Positions 5,942 to 14,545 of a stretch of 64,000 nucleotides of DNA are shown here, one piece after another. The stretch's first letter is position 1, and each line of letters begins with the position of its first letter. The stretch is from Dictyobacter arantiisoli (GTDB lineage Bacteria; Chloroflexota; Ktedonobacteria; Ktedonobacterales; Ktedonobacteraceae): positions 1-64,000 of the forward strand of contig NZ_BIXY01000031.1 in the NCBI RefSeq assembly GCF_008326305.1, in the 5' to 3' direction. The notes under the pieces were generated by a model. That model saw nothing but the letters and a program-made list of their open reading frames with translations. It made no database searches and had not been told where the DNA came from. The translations under genes and the position numbers were made by a program.

Positions 5942-7120
5942 TTAAGCCTGTCCACGTGTGGTGACGATATCATTGTTGGCGGCCCACAGATTTAGATCTT
6001 GCTGTTGGATGGCAGCGGCCATGAGATCTGGAAATAGCTCTGGTGTGCAGGCAAAGGCTGGAATGCCCATAGCAGCCAGTGCTTTTGCATTATTTTGATC
6101 GTAGTCGGGTGCCCCCTGGTCGCTCAATGCCAGTAAGCAGACAACCTGTACACCGCTGCTGACCAGTTCAGCGGCCCGGCGCATCATGCCCTGTCGATCT
6201 CCTCCTTCGTAGAGGTCGGTGATGAGGACCAGGATGGTTTGCGCAGGACGCGTGATGACCTGTTGACAATAGGTAAGCGCTCGATTGATATCGGTTCCTC
6301 CGCCCAGCTGGGTGCCAAACAGCAGATCTACTGGATCTTGCAAGTCGTCAGTCAGATCAACAACTGCTGTATCAAAAACGATCATGCGTGTGCTGACAGC
6401 TTTGAGGGTGGCGAGAACCGCTCCAAAGATGCCCGAATAGACGACCGATGAGGCCATTGAGCCGCTTTGATCGACGCAGAGGACGATATCACGCAATGAT
6501 GAGCGTTTATGTCCATGTCCCACCAGCCGTTCAACAATAATTGAGCGCTGCTCCGGGAGATAATTTTTCAGATTCAGGCGAATGGTGCGATCCCAGTCGA
6601 TCTCGTTTTGCCGGGGGCGATAACTTCTGGTGGCACGATTCAAGCTCCCACGTACGGCCTGTAAGAGTGGATTTGCCAGCTTGCGTTCCAGATCTTCTAC
6701 CACTTTCCGTACCACCTGCCTGGCGGTCTCTTTGGTCTTTTCAGGGATAACGCGGCTGAGTGAGAGAAGTGTCGCTACCAGATGGACATCGGCATCCACC
6801 TGCTCCAGTATCTCTGGCTGAAGCAACATCTGCTTAAGATTGAGGCGCTGGAAAGCATCCTGTTGCATCACGCGTACCGTTGAGGAGGGAAAGTAGCTAC
6901 GGATATCCCCTAGCCAGCGTGCGACGTTGGGCGCGGAACCGCCCAGGCCACCCGTGCGCTCGGCATTATATAATGCCTCCAGAACACGATCCATCTCGCC
7001 ATCAGCCCCCTCAAGGTTACCCAGGAAGCCAGTAGCAGTATTGGAGGTGAGCTCGCTGGCGGCATCTTTGCCCAGGACCAGGCGCCAGCGGCGTAAGCGT
7101 TCAGTTTCATCAATTGCCAT
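5942..7120 (-). CDS. VWA-domain protein of the MoxR/SWIM cluster
   Basis: A 392-residue protein, last gene of the five-gene minus-strand operon. The N-terminal half is helical and charged. The C-terminal half is a von Willebrand A domain with a complete metal site: DQSGS (MIDAS DxSxS) at about 215, the Thr in GGTDIN and the Asp in LITDLYEGGD. VWA partners of MoxR ATPases bind the ATPase and substrates in chaperone-like complexes, typically inserting cofactors or remodelling targets. The start at 7120 is chosen because GGGAG lies 7 nt upstream and the reading overlaps the previous gene by only 11 nt. The longest frame (to 7204) would add 28 unlikely residues. No signal peptide or membrane segment is present. 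Confidence 0.9.
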   Translation of the reverse strand: MAIDETERLRRWRLVLGKDAASELTSNTATGFLGNLEGADGEMDRVLEALYNAERTGGLGGSAPNVARWLGDIRSYFPSSTVRVMQQDAFQRLNLKQMLLQPEILEQVDADVHLVATLLSLSRVIPEKTKETARQVVRKVVEDLERKLANPLLQAVRGSLNRATRSYRPRQNEIDWDRTIRLNLKNYLPEQRSIIVERLVGHGHKRSSLRDIVLCVDQSGSMASSVVYSGIFGAVLATLKAVSTRMIVFDTAVVDLTDDLQDPVDLLFGTQLGGGTDINRALTYCQQVITRPAQTILVLITDLYEGGDRQGMMRRAAELVSSGVQVVCLLALSDQGAPDYDQNNAKALAAMGIPAFACTPELFPDLMAAAIQQQDLNLWAANNDIVTTRGQA

Positions 7121-9419
7121 AAGATACTCCCATGATTTGCGCGAGAAGTGGTAAAACAAGATCAGCATGTGCTGGATGCAGGATCGGCCCCTGTCCGGAT
7201 GCACCGGTTATCCTCTGGCTGGCGGGCTGATGCAGGCGTTTGACCTTTTCGCCCATCTGCCGCCGTTCGGGAGGTTGGAAATTGGCGAAGGCGCGCCGTA
7301 GAATGGGCAAGAGCGCGGTAAAGGTATCGGCTGCAAGCTCGCTCTGCCAGCGATCCAGCGCCAGCCAGAGATTATCCTGATGCAGGATGCGCACTCCGTT
7401 GCCGTGTAAGATGCCCTCGATCCAGGCCGCCGCCTGTGCGGTAGGAACGGCTGAAGCCAGAGCCAGATTGATAAGGTTCTGTATCTCATCATTATTCAAT
7501 GCCTGCTGATCCAGCAGCAGCCGACAACAATGTCCACGGACCAGCCCATGAATGTTCTCGCTTTCCGCAATGCGCCGTAATGTCCGGTTCCAGTGTGTGC
7601 GTTGCTCGGCCAGATCCAGCAATTGGATACTCTCCATCACATGATCAATGCTGGTCAGCATACCCGCAGCAGCCTCGTCATCAAGTGAGGCACAGGCACC
7701 CGGCAGACCGATCAGGCTGCGCTCGAAGAGGCCATCAATGATCGGCAAGATATCCTCGGCCCTGGTCTGACGCACATCGCTATAGCGGGCGATCTGTGCC
7801 AGGGGCGGCAAGGCATCCATGAGATGGCGTACATCGGCGGTGATGGTGGCGCGTTTCTGTATCTCCTTCAGGAGTTGTGCGATGGCGACGGGTAATTCAG
7901 CGAGCAGTGCCCCTTTGAGCAGATGGGTGAGCTGTGGCAGTTCTGGCTGTTTGCTGGCGGCGTCATTGAGATAGGCCGTGGTGGCCGTTTCAATGGTATT
8001 GCCCCAGATATTTGCCTCAATGATTGTCAGTGAGAACTCGACCTTCCATTGAAGTTGCCAGTATTCCCAGAAGGTCCCTTTTTTGTTGCGCACCGGCATT
8101 ATTTCTCCCCAGGGAATGCCCAGGAGATGCAGACGATGCAACAACTGGCTGCGGGCACGCTCATTCTTCTCACGCAGATCTAATTCCAATTGCTTGTGTT
8201 CGGCGGACGGTTTGAGGCGGAGACGGCGTTGTAGCTGCTCCAGATCATGTTGTAATGGGACGGCTGGTACATCCTGAGGTACCTGTCCCAGTTTCTCACC
8301 AATCTCCATTTTGGTGCGGATGAGATCCATAGGTGCGCTATCGCCGTGACAGAGCACGGTCTGGATGGCTTCGTTATGTTCAGCCAGACCGGGCTGGGTG
8401 AGATCGCGCATCGCGGACAGGGCTTCGCTGAGACGAACCGCTTCGATCACGCTGGCCGACGAAGCATCCAGATCATTTTTACGCAGCAAGCGAGCGGCCT
8501 TCGTAATCCAGCGGATAGCATTGCGATCTTTGACGGACCAGAGATGGGCATACCAGCCGGGCGCTTCGACACCCGCGCCATAGCCGCTGCGATAGGCGAG
8601 ACGTGAGTTCGTCCAGGGAATCCAGGTGCTGGCAACTTTGATGCGTTTGAGGCCATGCAATAGTTCCGCGTCGGCTTTATCGGGGCCGGGATCAACCAGG
8701 ACCGGTGCGTGCCAGGCTCCGCAGACGACCGCGATTCTCTGAAAGCCCTCGCGCTGGGCTACGCGAATGTTCTGACGCATTGAGGCTTCGCGTTGCGCCT
8801 CATGCTCATCTTTGGGCGGTCTATTGATGCGCAACTCAGTCATCGCCTCAAGGATACTCTCAAAGAAGCCCACCATATCCTGACGTTGTTCAATCTGGCG
8901 CTCCCACCACAGTTCATGATCCGTATAGCCAGCGGCCTGAGCCAGCAGAGACAGTGGATCATCGTGCAGCTGGATTTGTTGCTCCTCCTCACTTTGTCCC
9001 GACTGAGGGAGAGTCAGCACATCACTGTTTGTTGGATTGCTCTCTGTTTCTCCCTCTGATCCTGCCAGCGGTTCCTCTTTATCCTGTTCCTCGTGCGTAA
9101 CCTGCGCCAGTTGGATCGCCTGTGGTAGATCTATAAAGCGTGCTGGCACGTTGGCGCTATGGGCATACTTGAGCGCCTGCCACTCGGGCGAATAGTCGGT
9201 AAAAGGATAATAGACGGCCTTTGCAGGCTGATCGGGCGCATAGATCAGTAAAGCAACCGGCGGCTTCATAGCTGGATTTTGGATAAAGGGCAACATGTCT
9301 TGCGCATCGGGTGGCCCTTCGATCAGCAGGATATCCGGCTCGAGTTTGAGCAGGGCGGCGCGCAAGCTGCGCGCACACCCCGGTCCATGGTGGCGAATGC
9401 CAAAGACATGTATTGTCAC
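7110..9419 (-). CDS. DUF5682 family protein of the MoxR/SWIM cluster
   Basis: A 769-residue cytoplasmic protein starting with GTG. The N-terminus has the family hallmark GIRHHGPGCARSL followed by LIEGPPDA, and later VVCGAWHAPVL. These motifs recall the fold of TraB/ChaN-like hydrolases, an inference without a confirmed activity. A Glu/Gln-rich low-complexity stretch lies near 115-150. The rest is predicted helical. The GTG overlaps the stop of the AAA+ gene by one base (TAGTG), so the two are translationally coupled. The family is found in the same gene order, between a MoxR ATPase and a VWA protein, in many actinobacteria and other bacteria. Its biochemical function is unknown. Confidence 0.85.
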   Translation of the reverse strand: MTIHVFGIRHHGPGCARSLRAALLKLEPDILLIEGPPDAQDMLPFIQNPAMKPPVALLIYAPDQPAKAVYYPFTDYSPEWQALKYAHSANVPARFIDLPQAIQLAQVTHEEQDKEEPLAGSEGETESNPTNSDVLTLPQSGQSEEEQQIQLHDDPLSLLAQAAGYTDHELWWERQIEQRQDMVGFFESILEAMTELRINRPPKDEHEAQREASMRQNIRVAQREGFQRIAVVCGAWHAPVLVDPGPDKADAELLHGLKRIKVASTWIPWTNSRLAYRSGYGAGVEAPGWYAHLWSVKDRNAIRWITKAARLLRKNDLDASSASVIEAVRLSEALSAMRDLTQPGLAEHNEAIQTVLCHGDSAPMDLIRTKMEIGEKLGQVPQDVPAVPLQHDLEQLQRRLRLKPSAEHKQLELDLREKNERARSQLLHRLHLLGIPWGEIMPVRNKKGTFWEYWQLQWKVEFSLTIIEANIWGNTIETATTAYLNDAASKQPELPQLTHLLKGALLAELPVAIAQLLKEIQKRATITADVRHLMDALPPLAQIARYSDVRQTRAEDILPIIDGLFERSLIGLPGACASLDDEAAAGMLTSIDHVMESIQLLDLAEQRTHWNRTLRRIAESENIHGLVRGHCCRLLLDQQALNNDEIQNLINLALASAVPTAQAAAWIEGILHGNGVRILHQDNLWLALDRWQSELAADTFTALLPILRRAFANFQPPERRQMGEKVKRLHQPASQRITGASGQGPILHPAHADLVLPLLAQIMGVSYGN

Positions 9420-10543
9420 TAAAGCACCTCATTGAACGAACGGTACAAATCTTTCCAACCTTCACGATCTTTGACCACGGTTTGCAGGTATTCCAACCAG
9501 ACGACGCGATCCTGCACAGGATCTTTAAGAATCGCTCCTGTCAGGCTGGCCGCCAGATCGCTGGCATTGAGGATGCCATCCCCATAATAGCCCGCCATTG
9601 CCAATCCACTATTGATGACCGAGATGGCCTCAGCCGTAGAGAGGGTGCCGCTGGGAGATTTGAGCCTGGTTTTGCCGTCGATAGTGAGGCCGGAGCGCAA
9701 TTCGCGGAAGATGGTCACGACACGGCGAATCTCTTCGAGTGCCGGTTTTTCGGCTGGCAGTTCCAGAGCACGACCCAGGCTGGTGACGCGCTGATCGACA
9801 ATCTGGATCTCTTCATCAATGCTGTCGGGCAGTGGTAAGATGACAGTATTAAAGCGGCGCATCAGGGCGCTGGACAGTTCGTTGACCCCTTTATCACGAT
9901 TGTTGGCGGTCGCGATCACATTAAAGCCTTTGTGTGCCTGGGCCTCGGTATTCAGCTCCGGTATTGGCAGCGTCTTTTCAGAGAGAATCGTGATCAGGGT
10001 GTCCTGAACCTCGCTGGGAATACGTGTCAATTCCTCGATGCGGGCAATTTTGCCTTCCTGCATTGCATTCATCATTGGACTGACGACCAGGGCTGCTTCT
10101 GATGGCCCCTCAACCAGCAAACGAGCATAGTTCCAACCATAGCGGATGGCGTTTTCGTCAGTGCCCGCTGTTCCCTGAATAAGCAATGTTGAGTCGCCCA
10201 TGATGGCGGCGGCTAGATGCTCACTGACCCAGGATTTAGCTGTGCCTGGAACACCATAGAGGAGCAGGGCGCGATCAGTAGCGAGCGTGGCGACGGCAAT
10301 TTCGATCAGGCGCGCATTCCCGACGTATTTTGGCGTGATAACAAAGCCATTCTTGAGGGTGCCACCCATCAGATAGGTGCGTACCGCCCAGGGAGAGAGT
10401 TGCCAGTTTGGTGGTCGCTGACGGGTATCATGTTTTGCCAGTTCTGCCAACTCTTCCGCATATTGTTGTTCGGCGTGGCGGCGCAGGACGGCCTGCTCTA
10501 AGCTTGTCGTGTCAGTATGCTCAATGTTTTTGGCTGTCGTCAT
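9419..10543 (-). CDS. MoxR-type AAA+ ATPase of the SWIM/VWA cluster
   Basis: A 374-residue AAA+ ATPase. Walker A is GVPGTAKS; the Walker B region reads GKIARIEELTRIP; sensor 1 is ATANNRD; the arginine finger lies in ALMRRFN. MoxR ATPases form hexamers that use ATP to remodel proteins together with VWA partners, and here a VWA gene lies two genes downstream. The ATG at 10543 has AAGGAG about 11 nt upstream. The gene lies 28 nt after the DUF5691 gene and overlaps the DUF5682 gene by one base, so all are likely co-expressed. Family assignment is firm; the substrate is unknown. Confidence 0.92.
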   Translation of the reverse strand: MTTAKNIEHTDTTSLEQAVLRRHAEQQYAEELAELAKHDTRQRPPNWQLSPWAVRTYLMGGTLKNGFVITPKYVGNARLIEIAVATLATDRALLLYGVPGTAKSWVSEHLAAAIMGDSTLLIQGTAGTDENAIRYGWNYARLLVEGPSEAALVVSPMMNAMQEGKIARIEELTRIPSEVQDTLITILSEKTLPIPELNTEAQAHKGFNVIATANNRDKGVNELSSALMRRFNTVILPLPDSIDEEIQIVDQRVTSLGRALELPAEKPALEEIRRVVTIFRELRSGLTIDGKTRLKSPSGTLSTAEAISVINSGLAMAGYYGDGILNASDLAASLTGAILKDPVQDRVVWLEYLQTVVKDREGWKDLYRSFNEVL

Positions 10544-10571
10544 GGTCGTTAAATCTCCTTGTGCTAGCGAT

Positions 10572-12119
10572 TTATATTTCTGTTAAGATGCGCTTGCGTA
10601 TATGAATAAGCGTGGCCAGGCTGTGCAGTTGATTTTGGCGTCTCTGGCGAGACCAGTGCGTGTCATCCTCTGGTAGTTCAGTGCTCGCTATTTCCAGGGC
10701 GAAATCCAGCTTTGAAGGATCTAAACAGATAGCAAGCTGAAACAACAGTGTGCTGTCCCAAAAGCTGTAATGATCATTTGGATTGGTTGTGATATATGTT
10801 TTGAACATCGTGAGATACTTATCGCTGAAACTCGCGCTCCATGGTGCTGGCAATAGTAGCAGTGGATGCTGGCTTTTTTCACGATCCTCTAATAATGGCG
10901 TGAGTATTTCCTCCGCATCTGCTGGTGCTAATGCTGCGAAGAGTTCACGCGCAGCTTTTCCTATCGGTTGCAGGCTCGTGGACAGGACATGCTGGATATA
11001 CCAACCGAGTAGTGGTTGATACCAGTTGCTGGTGTGATGACGATACGCGGCTTTGATCAGATCTACGATGAGTGCTTTTCCCATCTCATTGGGGTTAAGC
11101 GCGTCAATAAATGTAGCTGGCGCGACGTCGAAACGGCTTTCCCAATGTTGTGGTGAGATGCGCCCGATAGCTTTATGGAACCAGTATTCGCTACTCAGTT
11201 TATCCTGCTTCAGTTTGGCGATAGCGATATCATTCTTCCAGTCCAGATCAATCTGCTTGGGAAGCGTGATGAGCAGTTTATTCTGCAATGAGGATTTTTT
11301 GAAGTCGAGCATACTATCGGCACGTGCGAGCAGGCGTTGTACAGAAGGTGAGGTTGGGATGTGCAGCAGGAGTCTGGCTGCGGCCAGACGTACACTCTCG
11401 CCGCGATCATTTAATGCCTGCTCGATAAAGTCTTGATCGGCGTCCGAGATGCCACTTTCAAGGCAGGTGAGCAGTGTGGCACGTACATCAGCCTTCTCTT
11501 GCTTCCAGACCTGCTCGAGCCAGGTGCGTGCCTGAGCGGGATCTTGTGTGCGTAGACGGCTCAGGATTTCTTGCCGTTGCTCAAGCGTTCCTTCTTGCCA
11601 GAGCGTTTCTGCTTCTGCCGGGAGTATGGTGGCATGCTCATCCACCAGATAGCGAGATGCCCATTTCCAGGTTGGTTTGAACTGACTGAGCCAGCGTCCC
11701 CGTTCACCCAGCAGTGGCGCCAGCTGTGAGCGATGCTCTGAATTGGTGGTGCCATAGGCGAGACATTGTGGCAAGACCTCATCTGGTATTCTGTGCCCAC
11801 TGCTGCGTAAGCGCTCCAGGGCTTCAGGTAACAGTATTGTATAGGGCGGTTGGAATAGTCCGATCAACAATTGGGCGTTCCGGGATAAGCAGGCTGGCAT
11901 AGTTTCTGGCGCGGCAACTTCAGGGAGTGTCTGCGCGCTGCTAACCAGACTACTTGCCTGCTTATAGATAGCTAGTGCTCCGGCGGTTAACAGGAACGAG
12001 CGCTCTTTCTGCTCAACTGGTAGCTGCGCGGCCAGGGTATCGATGGCTGTATGTGTCTCTGGCAGTGCCTCATTGGCCTGTCCCGTCCCCACAATCGCCG
12101 TCGTAACAAAGGTATCCAT
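10572..12119 (-). CDS. DUF5691 family protein of the MoxR/SWIM cluster
   Basis: A 515-residue soluble protein, largely alpha-helical, with HEAT-like stretches around 190-270 (for example RGESVRLAAARLL). The N-terminus TTAIVGTGQA and the WKWASRYL region around 165 are typical of DUF5691. It lies 14 nt after the SWIM gene with GGAG before its ATG, and 28 nt before the MoxR gene. The helical repeats suggest a scaffold or adaptor for the ATPase. No enzyme motif is recognised. Family membership is based on recall of the conserved neighbourhood and motifs. Confidence 0.8.
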   Translation of the reverse strand: MDTFVTTAIVGTGQANEALPETHTAIDTLAAQLPVEQKERSFLLTAGALAIYKQASSLVSSAQTLPEVAAPETMPACLSRNAQLLIGLFQPPYTILLPEALERLRSSGHRIPDEVLPQCLAYGTTNSEHRSQLAPLLGERGRWLSQFKPTWKWASRYLVDEHATILPAEAETLWQEGTLEQRQEILSRLRTQDPAQARTWLEQVWKQEKADVRATLLTCLESGISDADQDFIEQALNDRGESVRLAAARLLLHIPTSPSVQRLLARADSMLDFKKSSLQNKLLITLPKQIDLDWKNDIAIAKLKQDKLSSEYWFHKAIGRISPQHWESRFDVAPATFIDALNPNEMGKALIVDLIKAAYRHHTSNWYQPLLGWYIQHVLSTSLQPIGKAARELFAALAPADAEEILTPLLEDREKSQHPLLLLPAPWSASFSDKYLTMFKTYITTNPNDHYSFWDSTLLFQLAICLDPSKLDFALEIASTELPEDDTHWSRQRRQNQLHSLATLIHIRKRILTEI

Positions 12120-12133
12120 GATAGACTAGCTCC

Positions 12134-13462
12134 TTAGAGTAGATGATAGGTGGTGTGATCGACCAGCACACCCAATGGCAATAATGCCTCACCATTCCAT
12201 TCACCGGCAAAATCCAGAGGATGTCCTCCTGAAAGTGCCAGCAATTTCCAGTGTTCATTCGCTGTCTCGACGAGAGGAACGGCCTGGCCCACCTGATCAC
12301 TTAGATACCAGCGATTCTGGTTACTATCGTAGATGGGAATGGCGGATTGGAGCAGGCAGAGAAAGGTTTCACGCCAGGGCTGTTTGGCTAATTGGGTCGC
12401 GACCTGGGCGAAAAAAGCATCGAGCGTTTCAGCCCCGAATGATCCCTGGATGGCCTGAGGCATGTCTGGCCGCCGCACGAATAATGCTCGCTGTGGATCG
12501 TTTCCCGGCCAGTAGACGATCTCCGCCCGTTGCTGCATTCCCAGTGGAAAGTTCTCTGCAAAAGGAGCGCTGGCATAGGCAAATTGTAGTATCTGGGCGC
12601 TGCGACCGGTTTCCTTTCCATAGAGCCAGGTTGATTGGACACGATTGCGCTCGACTTCACTTGTCTGTTGTCCCAGCATGAACCAATCGTCGCTGACATG
12701 TTCACCACGCTCATGTACCTCTGCCTCTTTCAGTGTCCAGCCAACCAGCAACTTGATATCCTCTTGCAGTGGTGGCGCAAAGCGTTCGAGATGGTGATAG
12801 GACTCGCTGAGGAGCGCCAGTTTTCCCAGCTTCCCGAGCAGCTTTTCGGTCCAATCTGGCGATGCATGCGGTATAGCTGACATCGTACGGAGTGCTTGTG
12901 CCAGCCCGAGTGCCTGCGCATCCACCATTTTTGCAGCCTGTTGGTGCCAGATGGTGGTTGAATGCGTGTCCAGGCTGCCCAGACCGTTGCGTATCAGATC
13001 CTCAAGCCAGAGATCGAGTTGCGCAATACCTTGCAGGATTTTCTCCTGTCGCTTTGCAGTACTCTTCTGAGTACTACTGGCGGCTGGCTTTTTTGTTGGA
13101 CCCTGCGTCGCCAGCGTCGCTTTCTGTTGCTGGATCGCGGAGCGTTTGTTCAGCCAGCTGATTACCCAGTCCGGTGGTTCGCCTGTCGCGATGGCGGTAG
13201 GCGTATTCGCGCATAAATAGAGCAGGCCCAGGCTATGTTTGCAGGGTATTTTGCGGCTGGGACAACTGCATTGTGTGGTCAGTGTAGAGAGTTCAATGCG
13301 AACCTGATAGAGTGCGCTGCCCTGACATTCGCCCCACAATGCCTGAGCGTTTTGTCCGACAGTTTTCCAGTTTTTGGGCAGGGAAAGCTTTCTACCAGCA
13401 TTCGCAACACTGACATCAGGAGCCATTTTTGCGACCTGATCGACTGTGACATGTATATTCAA
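12134..13462 (-). CDS. SWIM zinc-finger protein, first gene of the MoxR/VWA operon
   Basis: A 442-residue protein. The SWIM zinc-binding motif CxCx(n)CxH is visible as QCSCPSRKIPCKHSLGL near residue 65. SWIM domains bind nucleic acid or protein. The start is a TTG at 13462 with GGGGG about 9 nt upstream. It keeps the VDQVAKMAPD segment that homologues carry at their N-termini; an in-frame ATG 12 codons in would remove it. The remaining 350 residues are helical with no catalytic motif. It heads the operon, and the divergent small gene at 13726 shares the 263-nt upstream region. Confidence 0.85.
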   Translation of the reverse strand: MNIHVTVDQVAKMAPDVSVANAGRKLSLPKNWKTVGQNAQALWGECQGSALYQVRIELSTLTTQCSCPSRKIPCKHSLGLLYLCANTPTAIATGEPPDWVISWLNKRSAIQQQKATLATQGPTKKPAASSTQKSTAKRQEKILQGIAQLDLWLEDLIRNGLGSLDTHSTTIWHQQAAKMVDAQALGLAQALRTMSAIPHASPDWTEKLLGKLGKLALLSESYHHLERFAPPLQEDIKLLVGWTLKEAEVHERGEHVSDDWFMLGQQTSEVERNRVQSTWLYGKETGRSAQILQFAYASAPFAENFPLGMQQRAEIVYWPGNDPQRALFVRRPDMPQAIQGSFGAETLDAFFAQVATQLAKQPWRETFLCLLQSAIPIYDSNQNRWYLSDQVGQAVPLVETANEHWKLLALSGGHPLDFAGEWNGEALLPLGVLVDHTTYHLL

Positions 13463-14152: not shown

Positions 14153-14545
14153 ATGCAAGAGAAAACAAAAATCCAACATATTCCGGTAAAAGTATACCGT
14201 ACCGCCGATCACCTGATGGTCGCTGCCCCCATGCCCGGCTTGCAGCCAGATGATATAACGGCTGAAGTCACAACGGACAATCATCTCATCCTGCAAGGCG
14301 AACTGCGCGGCATCCTCAAAGAGATGAAAGAATTGCTGGTCGATGAGTGGAGTGTTGGTGGTTACTATCGTGATATTACCCTTCCCTCAATCGTTGATGC
14401 AGTGCATGCCAATGTCAGCTATGGCAATGGTGTACTGGTAATCGCCTTCCCGATTAGTCAGCAAACGCATCCCGACCGTCTCACTCTGCAGCGCATCGGC
14501 GTCGACCGTGGTGAGCATCGCGGTACCGCCAATGTCAACCCATAA
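14153..14545 (+). CDS. Small heat-shock protein, Hsp20/alpha-crystallin family
   Basis: A 130-residue protein. The alpha-crystallin domain covers about residues 10-105, with typical strands LMVAAPMPGLQPDDI, LILQGE and YYRDITLP, and the GNGVLVIAFP strand before a short tail. These ATP-independent chaperones hold unfolding proteins in large oligomers. The usual C-terminal IxI anchoring motif is not evident. The start has GGAAAGG upstream. It follows the small hydrophilic gene by 49 nt, and a strong bidirectional hairpin lies about 190 nt downstream. Confidence 0.9.
   Translation: MQEKTKIQHIPVKVYRTADHLMVAAPMPGLQPDDITAEVTTDNHLILQGELRGILKEMKELLVDEWSVGGYYRDITLPSIVDAVHANVSYGNGVLVIAFPISQQTHPDRLTLQRIGVDRGEHRGTANVNP

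Follow-up and report, generated by a model that had tools for sequence, protein, structure and literature searches.

MoxR-VWA systems are already known as a kind, and the protein families described below, as well as their co-occurrence, are visible in annotated genomes. NorQD is responsible for the insertion of non-haem iron: a finger of its VWA protein enters the AAA+ pore, the use of ATP twists a linker, and the target is presumably gripped by the MIDAS (PMC13036017, PMC9976466). In the MoxR-vWA ternary conflict systems the third component is a VMAP, iSTAND, FtsH or beta-propeller protein, and the vWA proteins are effector-diversified (Kaur et al. 2020, PMC7159879). Escherichia coli K-12 carries the related genes yehL-yehM-yehP-yehQ, with DUF4132 (yehI) and WGR (yehF) genes upstream, and DUF5691 is absent there. 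Of 5426 complete E. coli genomes, at least 5181 have ≥80% of yehLMPQ, almost always as one chromosomal copy. A search of 5.4 million open-access papers found no published function for yehLMPQ or for the five-gene set described here, in line with the original prediction, which names no defined function for the set.

The window, which is the whole 64,000-nucleotide stretch of Dictyobacter arantiisoli DNA that was analysed, carries the five genes on the minus strand at positions 5942-13462, and the open reading frames and Pfam matches confirm the families first proposed for them. The SWIM zinc-finger protein (12134..13462, minus; 442 aa; Pfam SWIM 7.7e-07) is a putative target-recognition subunit; its gene has a TTG start, and a TTAGGGGG stretch lies shortly 5' of this start. 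The DUF5691 protein (10572..12119, minus; 515 aa; Pfam DUF5691 1.2e-105) has a weak HEAT_2 match (0.0033) and is a HEAT-repeat-like putative scaffold. It is followed by a MoxR-clade AAA+ ATPase of the YehL type (9419..10543, minus; 374 aa; Pfam AAA_5 4.1e-37, bpMoxR 9.1e-07), a DUF5682 protein of the YehM type (7110..9419, minus; 769 aa; Pfam DUF5682 1.6e-261) and a CoxE-type VWA protein of the YehP type (5942..7120, minus; 392 aa from the ATG at 7120; Pfam PF05762 VWA_CoxE 6.9e-52). The gaps of 14 and 28 nt and the overlap of 1 nt originally given are exact in the ORF coordinates. The further overlap of 11 nt holds when the VWA gene starts at ATG 7120 (MAIDETER...), and becomes 95 nt with the GTG at 7204 of the ORF list, from which the frame is also open (the long ORF); ATG 7120 is located just upstream of the point where BLASTP similarity to YehP starts. 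No strong minus-strand terminator was detected within the operon in a terminator scan. The 7.2 Mb genome contains a single DUF5682 gene, and the nearest relatives of the window AAA+ protein in the AAA+ comparison are from Dictyobacter and Ktedonobacteraceae (Chloroflexota). Searches of the window proteins returned no curated NCBIfam family at cut-off and just weak partial PADLOC matches (AAA+ and SWIM). A divergent gene for an Hsp20-type small heat-shock protein (14153-14545; Pfam) is located upstream of the operon.

The order SWIM-DUF5691-AAA-DUF5682-VWA is exact in 61 of 80 loci from GTDB genomes of about 14 phyla, these 80 being the best of at least 567 DUF5682 relatives in one GTDB scan; many of the loci without the exact order are short or ended by a contig edge. 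The phyla among these best 80 of at least 567 include Chloroflexota, Cyanobacteriota, Planctomycetota, Pseudomonadota, Bacteroidota, Actinomycetota, Acidobacteriota, Deinococcota and others. Across the 62 complete loci with all genes on one strand, successive genes are separated by medians of -4, 1, 12.5 and -4 nt, and the set covers a median of 7.5 kb. The recurrence of gene order and spacing in about 14 phyla puts them far beyond chance. Among 201 sampled genomes of the window's phylum, DUF5682 was found in 27 and DUF5691 above cut-off in 18, all 18 of which also have DUF5682 (Fisher p = 2.3e-19). At five loci DUF5682 stands alone, and each of these genomes has the AAA+ and VWA partners (55-74% identical) at another place. 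A split or truncated locus was examined in nine genomes: all nine have the VWA partner and seven the AAA+ partner, and the two misses may be assembly gaps. The five genes are one unit, as originally claimed, given the order across phyla and the confinement of DUF5691 above cut-off, in the phylum sample, to genomes with DUF5682. Homologues scattered among related genomes, which would have spoken against such a unit, were not the rule: the order is kept across phyla, and genomes in which the genes are unlinked mostly retain the AAA+ and VWA partners. With respect to horizontal transfer, the AAA+ tree shows 19 label changes against a minimum possible of 12, much of the tree being weakly supported. 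A divergent three-gene form, VWA-AAA-DUF5682, was observed at four loci of one genus of the window's phylum, where it is preceded by a conserved 452-aa protein without a Pfam match.

The relation to yehLMPQ, which was absent from the original prediction, extends over part of the set. YehL is 42% identical to the window AAA+ protein (BLASTP 2e-77), YehM 27% identical to DUF5682 (9e-35) and YehP 34% identical to the VWA protein from residue 34 of the long ORF onward (2e-73). YehQ is also a SWIM protein and aligns with that of the window at the SWIM motif only; judged from this alignment, the C-terminal domain of the window-type SWIM protein may not be essential, because YehQ shares just the motif. 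DUF4132 accompanies AAA-DUF5682-VWA-SWIM on plasmids of Iodobacter and Allorhizobium, and further plasmid copies of the gene set exist. The mobilizable Iodobacter plasmid NZ_CP025783 has the arrangement DUF4132-DUF4132-AAA-DUF5682-VWA-SWIM, with type I restriction genes and transposases on its flanks. A DUF4132-AAA-DUF5682 set is found in Streptomyces. Six Chitinophagaceae loci carry a DUF4132 gene (MolR-like, about 980 aa) directly 3' of the VWA gene, except that in one of them (L140) it sits between DUF5682 and VWA instead. When flank clustering was used to seek a recurrent downstream target gene, DUF4132 alone among the clusters inspected regularly adjoins the operon, in Chitinophagaceae; WGR proteins were found only in E. 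coli. The E. coli, plasmid, Streptomyces and Chitinophagaceae arrangements therefore define AAA-DUF5682-VWA as the core, usually joined by a SWIM protein and by a single large putative scaffold of HEAT-like type, either DUF5691 or DUF4132, and DUF4132 appears to take the place of DUF5691 in the E. coli-type version. The genome of the window has two DUF4132 genes on other contigs (G000:C17:11995-12534 and G000:C28:39621-40160). AAA+, DUF5682 and VWA genes were also seen on a faecal phage scaffold designated 'unverified' (MT835988.1); phage carriage was not accepted from this record, and the scaffold may well be bacterial DNA labelled phage.

The AAA+ protein contains Walker A (GVPGTAKS), Walker B (IEE), sensor-1 (ATANN) and RRF motifs. 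Walker A, the sensor-1 Asn and the Arg pair are kept in about 97-100 relatives. In 99 of 100 relatives Walker B has EE where DE is usual, and the EE form is, on these alignments, a signature of this AAA+ family. The VWA protein has a complete MIDAS (DxSxS-T-D), likewise conserved in about 97-100 relatives (D245, S247, S249, T304 and D330 in long-ORF numbering). Its C-termini are uniform across relatives (median 88 and maximum 101 residues past the MIDAS Asp), and no effector fusions were detected. The 'complete active sites' ascribed to both proteins are thus intact as motifs, with the qualification that Walker B is EE rather than DE. The nearest solved relatives of the AAA+ protein are Midasin and, among those after it, NorQ, and the intact motifs together with the nearness of NorQ support the earlier suggestion of MoxR-VWA remodelling as the likely engine. 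In the same order as the window's genome, one YehL-type AAA+ gene contains an intein within the AAA+ domain (L071:6590-8989; Pfam Intein_splicing 4.4e-23), which carries a LAGLIDADG endonuclease domain. In the SWIM protein the ligands CxCx6CxH are conserved in 83 of 83 relatives. Its AlphaFold model (pLDDT 94.3) consists of an N-terminal SWIM domain, a helical middle and a C-terminal beta domain, for which Foldseek retrieved baculovirus LEF-3, RPA70, HIN domains and a telomere end-binding protein at TM-scores of only about 0.2. There is an even chance, going by this model, that the C-terminal domain is OB-like, resembling two OB folds, and possibly nucleic-acid-binding. For DUF5691 and DUF4132, weak HEAT_2 matches suggest a HEAT-like scaffold.

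Pfam assigns DUF5682 no function, and the open-access literature searched yielded no paper that names it. Its N-terminal 240 residues read GIRHH...LIEGP...SPEWQA...DLP...REASMR...VVCGAWH, in which H10, E34, E79, D97, R210, E211, M214, G234 and H237 are the same in all 105 sequences compared and the Gly of the first GxxH is present in 98 of 105. The resulting signature is GxxH...E...RExxM...GxxH, and GxxH...E...RN/RE...GxxH is taken here to be the pattern of TraB/TIKI proteins. E. coli YbaP, annotated as TraB family, reads LIGSIHMGSH...LIVEADV...QRNLAWRDKL...VVAVGALHLYG. TIKI enzymes use a 2His/2Glu site, and ChaN belongs to the TIKI-type fold (PMC6254334). The AlphaFold model of DUF5682 (79 sequences; pLDDT 89.4) shows an alpha/beta domain (about residues 1-300) with the expected order of elements, followed by helical repeats. 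In BFVD, a set of predicted viral structures, this model is matched best by a TraB family protein, with Foldseek probability 1.00, TM 0.44 by target length and E 0.018, which is not significant by E-value. A Foldseek search of the PDB with the full-length model gave no TIKI protein in the top 50, which are mostly helical-repeat matches that swamp the rest, and a sequence search against the PDB returned nothing convincing. HMM-HMM comparison of the N-terminal domain with the TraB and Ere families was not significant, nor did the positive control (TraB against Ere) succeed; the TraB sequences came from genomes of other phyla, no TraB loci having been found in the window's phylum. From the model, a TraB/TIKI-like fold is likely. 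This predicted domain and the invariant signature indicate that DUF5682 is probably a hydrolase or cofactor-binding enzyme; that it is specifically a hydrolase is plausible, at somewhat less than even chances. Neither this domain nor the tandem-OB-like domain of the SWIM protein figured in the original prediction.

The operon may be read, with about equal chances of being right and wrong, as one ATP-driven protein-remodelling machine with DUF5682 as the predicted enzyme at its centre. The YehL-type AAA+ subunits would form a ring, on which the YehP-type VWA protein would dock and grip the target by its MIDAS metal site, by analogy with NorD on NorQ. DUF5682 would be the obligate catalytic or cofactor-binding partner, presenting a modelled TraB/TIKI-like domain with invariant His and Glu on a helical-repeat arm; DUF5691 would act as a HEAT-like scaffold, and the SWIM protein, by its zinc finger and putative tandem-OB-like domain, would recognise the target, either nucleic acid or protein. 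ATP hydrolysis would then activate, load or release DUF5682 on the target. The analysis shows which genes are present, their order and co-occurrence, and the conservation of their motifs; complex formation, hydrolysis by DUF5682 and this direction of action are what we infer, and the DUF5682 fold and the OB-like domain are predicted. A bolder and rather unlikely extension is an undescribed class of AAA+-controlled hydrolases, widespread in bacteria, in which a MoxR-VWA motor gates a TraB/TIKI-type DUF5682, a zinc-finger/tandem-OB protein brings DUF5682 to nucleic acid or nucleoprotein, and the HEAT-like scaffolds (DUF5691 or DUF4132) are interchangeable.

The set could instead be a chaperone for the insertion of a metal centre or cofactor, of the CoxDE/NorQD kind, in which the MoxR ring and its VWA partner open a target by twisting, with DUF5682 as a ChaN-like cofactor carrier, not a hydrolase. 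ChaN binds haem, and metal-insertion pairs usually adjoin their target enzyme. The CoxE type of the VWA protein, the near relation of the AAA+ protein to NorQ, the insertion of non-haem iron by NorQD (PMC13036017, PMC9976466), the inclusion of ChaN in the TIKI-type fold (PMC6254334) and a SWIM protein predicted to bind zinc are all consistent with this. However, among the flanking clusters inspected no target enzyme recurs beside the operon, and the two invariant His and two invariant Glu of DUF5682 suit catalysis at least as well, so that such a chaperone is considered unlikely. It is improbable, in turn, that the set serves in nucleic-acid damage or processing, with the SWIM and OB-like domains, and in the E. 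coli type the WGR and DUF4132 partners, bringing a MoxR-VWA-DUF5682 machine to DNA or RNA: the C-terminal model of the SWIM protein resembles ssDNA-binding proteins, YehF (WGR) and YehI (DUF4132) adjoin yehL, and DUF4132 genes are repeatedly next to the operon, in Chitinophagaceae, Iodobacter, Allorhizobium and Streptomyces, but the TM-scores of the OB match are low (about 0.2), the flanking clusters that were identified include no recurrent nuclease, helicase or repair gene, and the WGR proteins found are from E. coli only. A role in conflict or against phages, in which the SWIM/OB protein senses nucleic acid, the MoxR-VWA pair is the switch and DUF5682 is a hydrolase acting as effector, would accord with the described conflict systems driven by MoxR-vWA pairs (PMC7159879), with the E. 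coli-type set adjoining a type I restriction system and transposases on the mobilizable Iodobacter plasmid, with the other plasmid copies and with the patchy occurrence in 27 of 201 genomes of the phylum, but is likewise improbable, and the original placement among NTP-dependent conflict systems is not upheld, since the PADLOC matches are weak and partial, Pfam shows no VMAP, iSTAND, FtsH or beta-propeller partner among the five window proteins, the VWA C-termini are uniform and without effector fusions, the genome has a single DUF5682, the E. coli relative is core chromosomal, and just one phage record, itself unverified, was found. As a role for the operon, chromosomal housekeeping or stress is likelier than defence.

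The remodelling machine built around DUF5682 is the preferred reading. In the open-access papers searched, no description was found of the five genes as one system, of their relation to yehLMPQ, of a TraB/TIKI-like domain in DUF5682 or of an OB-like one in the SWIM protein. Nor was a published function found there for the gene set, although it spans about 14 phyla and nearly every E. coli strain has the version of that species. The predicted active site of DUF5682 (H10, E34, E211, H237) and the tractable yehLMP genes of E. coli make this anonymous operon directly testable; if the reading is true, a hydrolase or cofactor enzyme joins the targets controlled by MoxR-VWA motors.

Compared with known systems, DUF5682 is similar to TraB/PrgY/GumN, erythromycin esterase and ChaN (the TIKI superfamily) in its predicted alpha/beta core, in GxxH...E...GxxH and in the RN/RE before the second GxxH, but differs by its large C-terminal part of helical repeats and by its link to an AAA+ operon, with sequence-level homology that is not significant. 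The MoxR-vWA ternary conflict systems likewise combine MoxR and vWA with an obligate third protein, whereas in the window this protein is DUF5682, diversified effectors are absent, the set is single copy in the genome and the E. coli version is core. NorQ/NorD, CoxD/CoxE and other MoxR-VWA chaperones share with the window a MoxR AAA+ protein with ATPase motifs and a CoxE-type VWA protein with a complete MIDAS; in contrast to NorQ/NorD and CoxD/CoxE, the window operon has three more conserved subunits, no known target enzyme alongside and EE in Walker B. The yehL-yehM-yehP-yehQ operon lacks DUF5691, has DUF4132/WGR genes upstream and the SWIM gene last, and its YehQ shares the SWIM motif alone, but it unites the same AAA+, DUF5682 and VWA families with a SWIM protein in one operon, as the window does.
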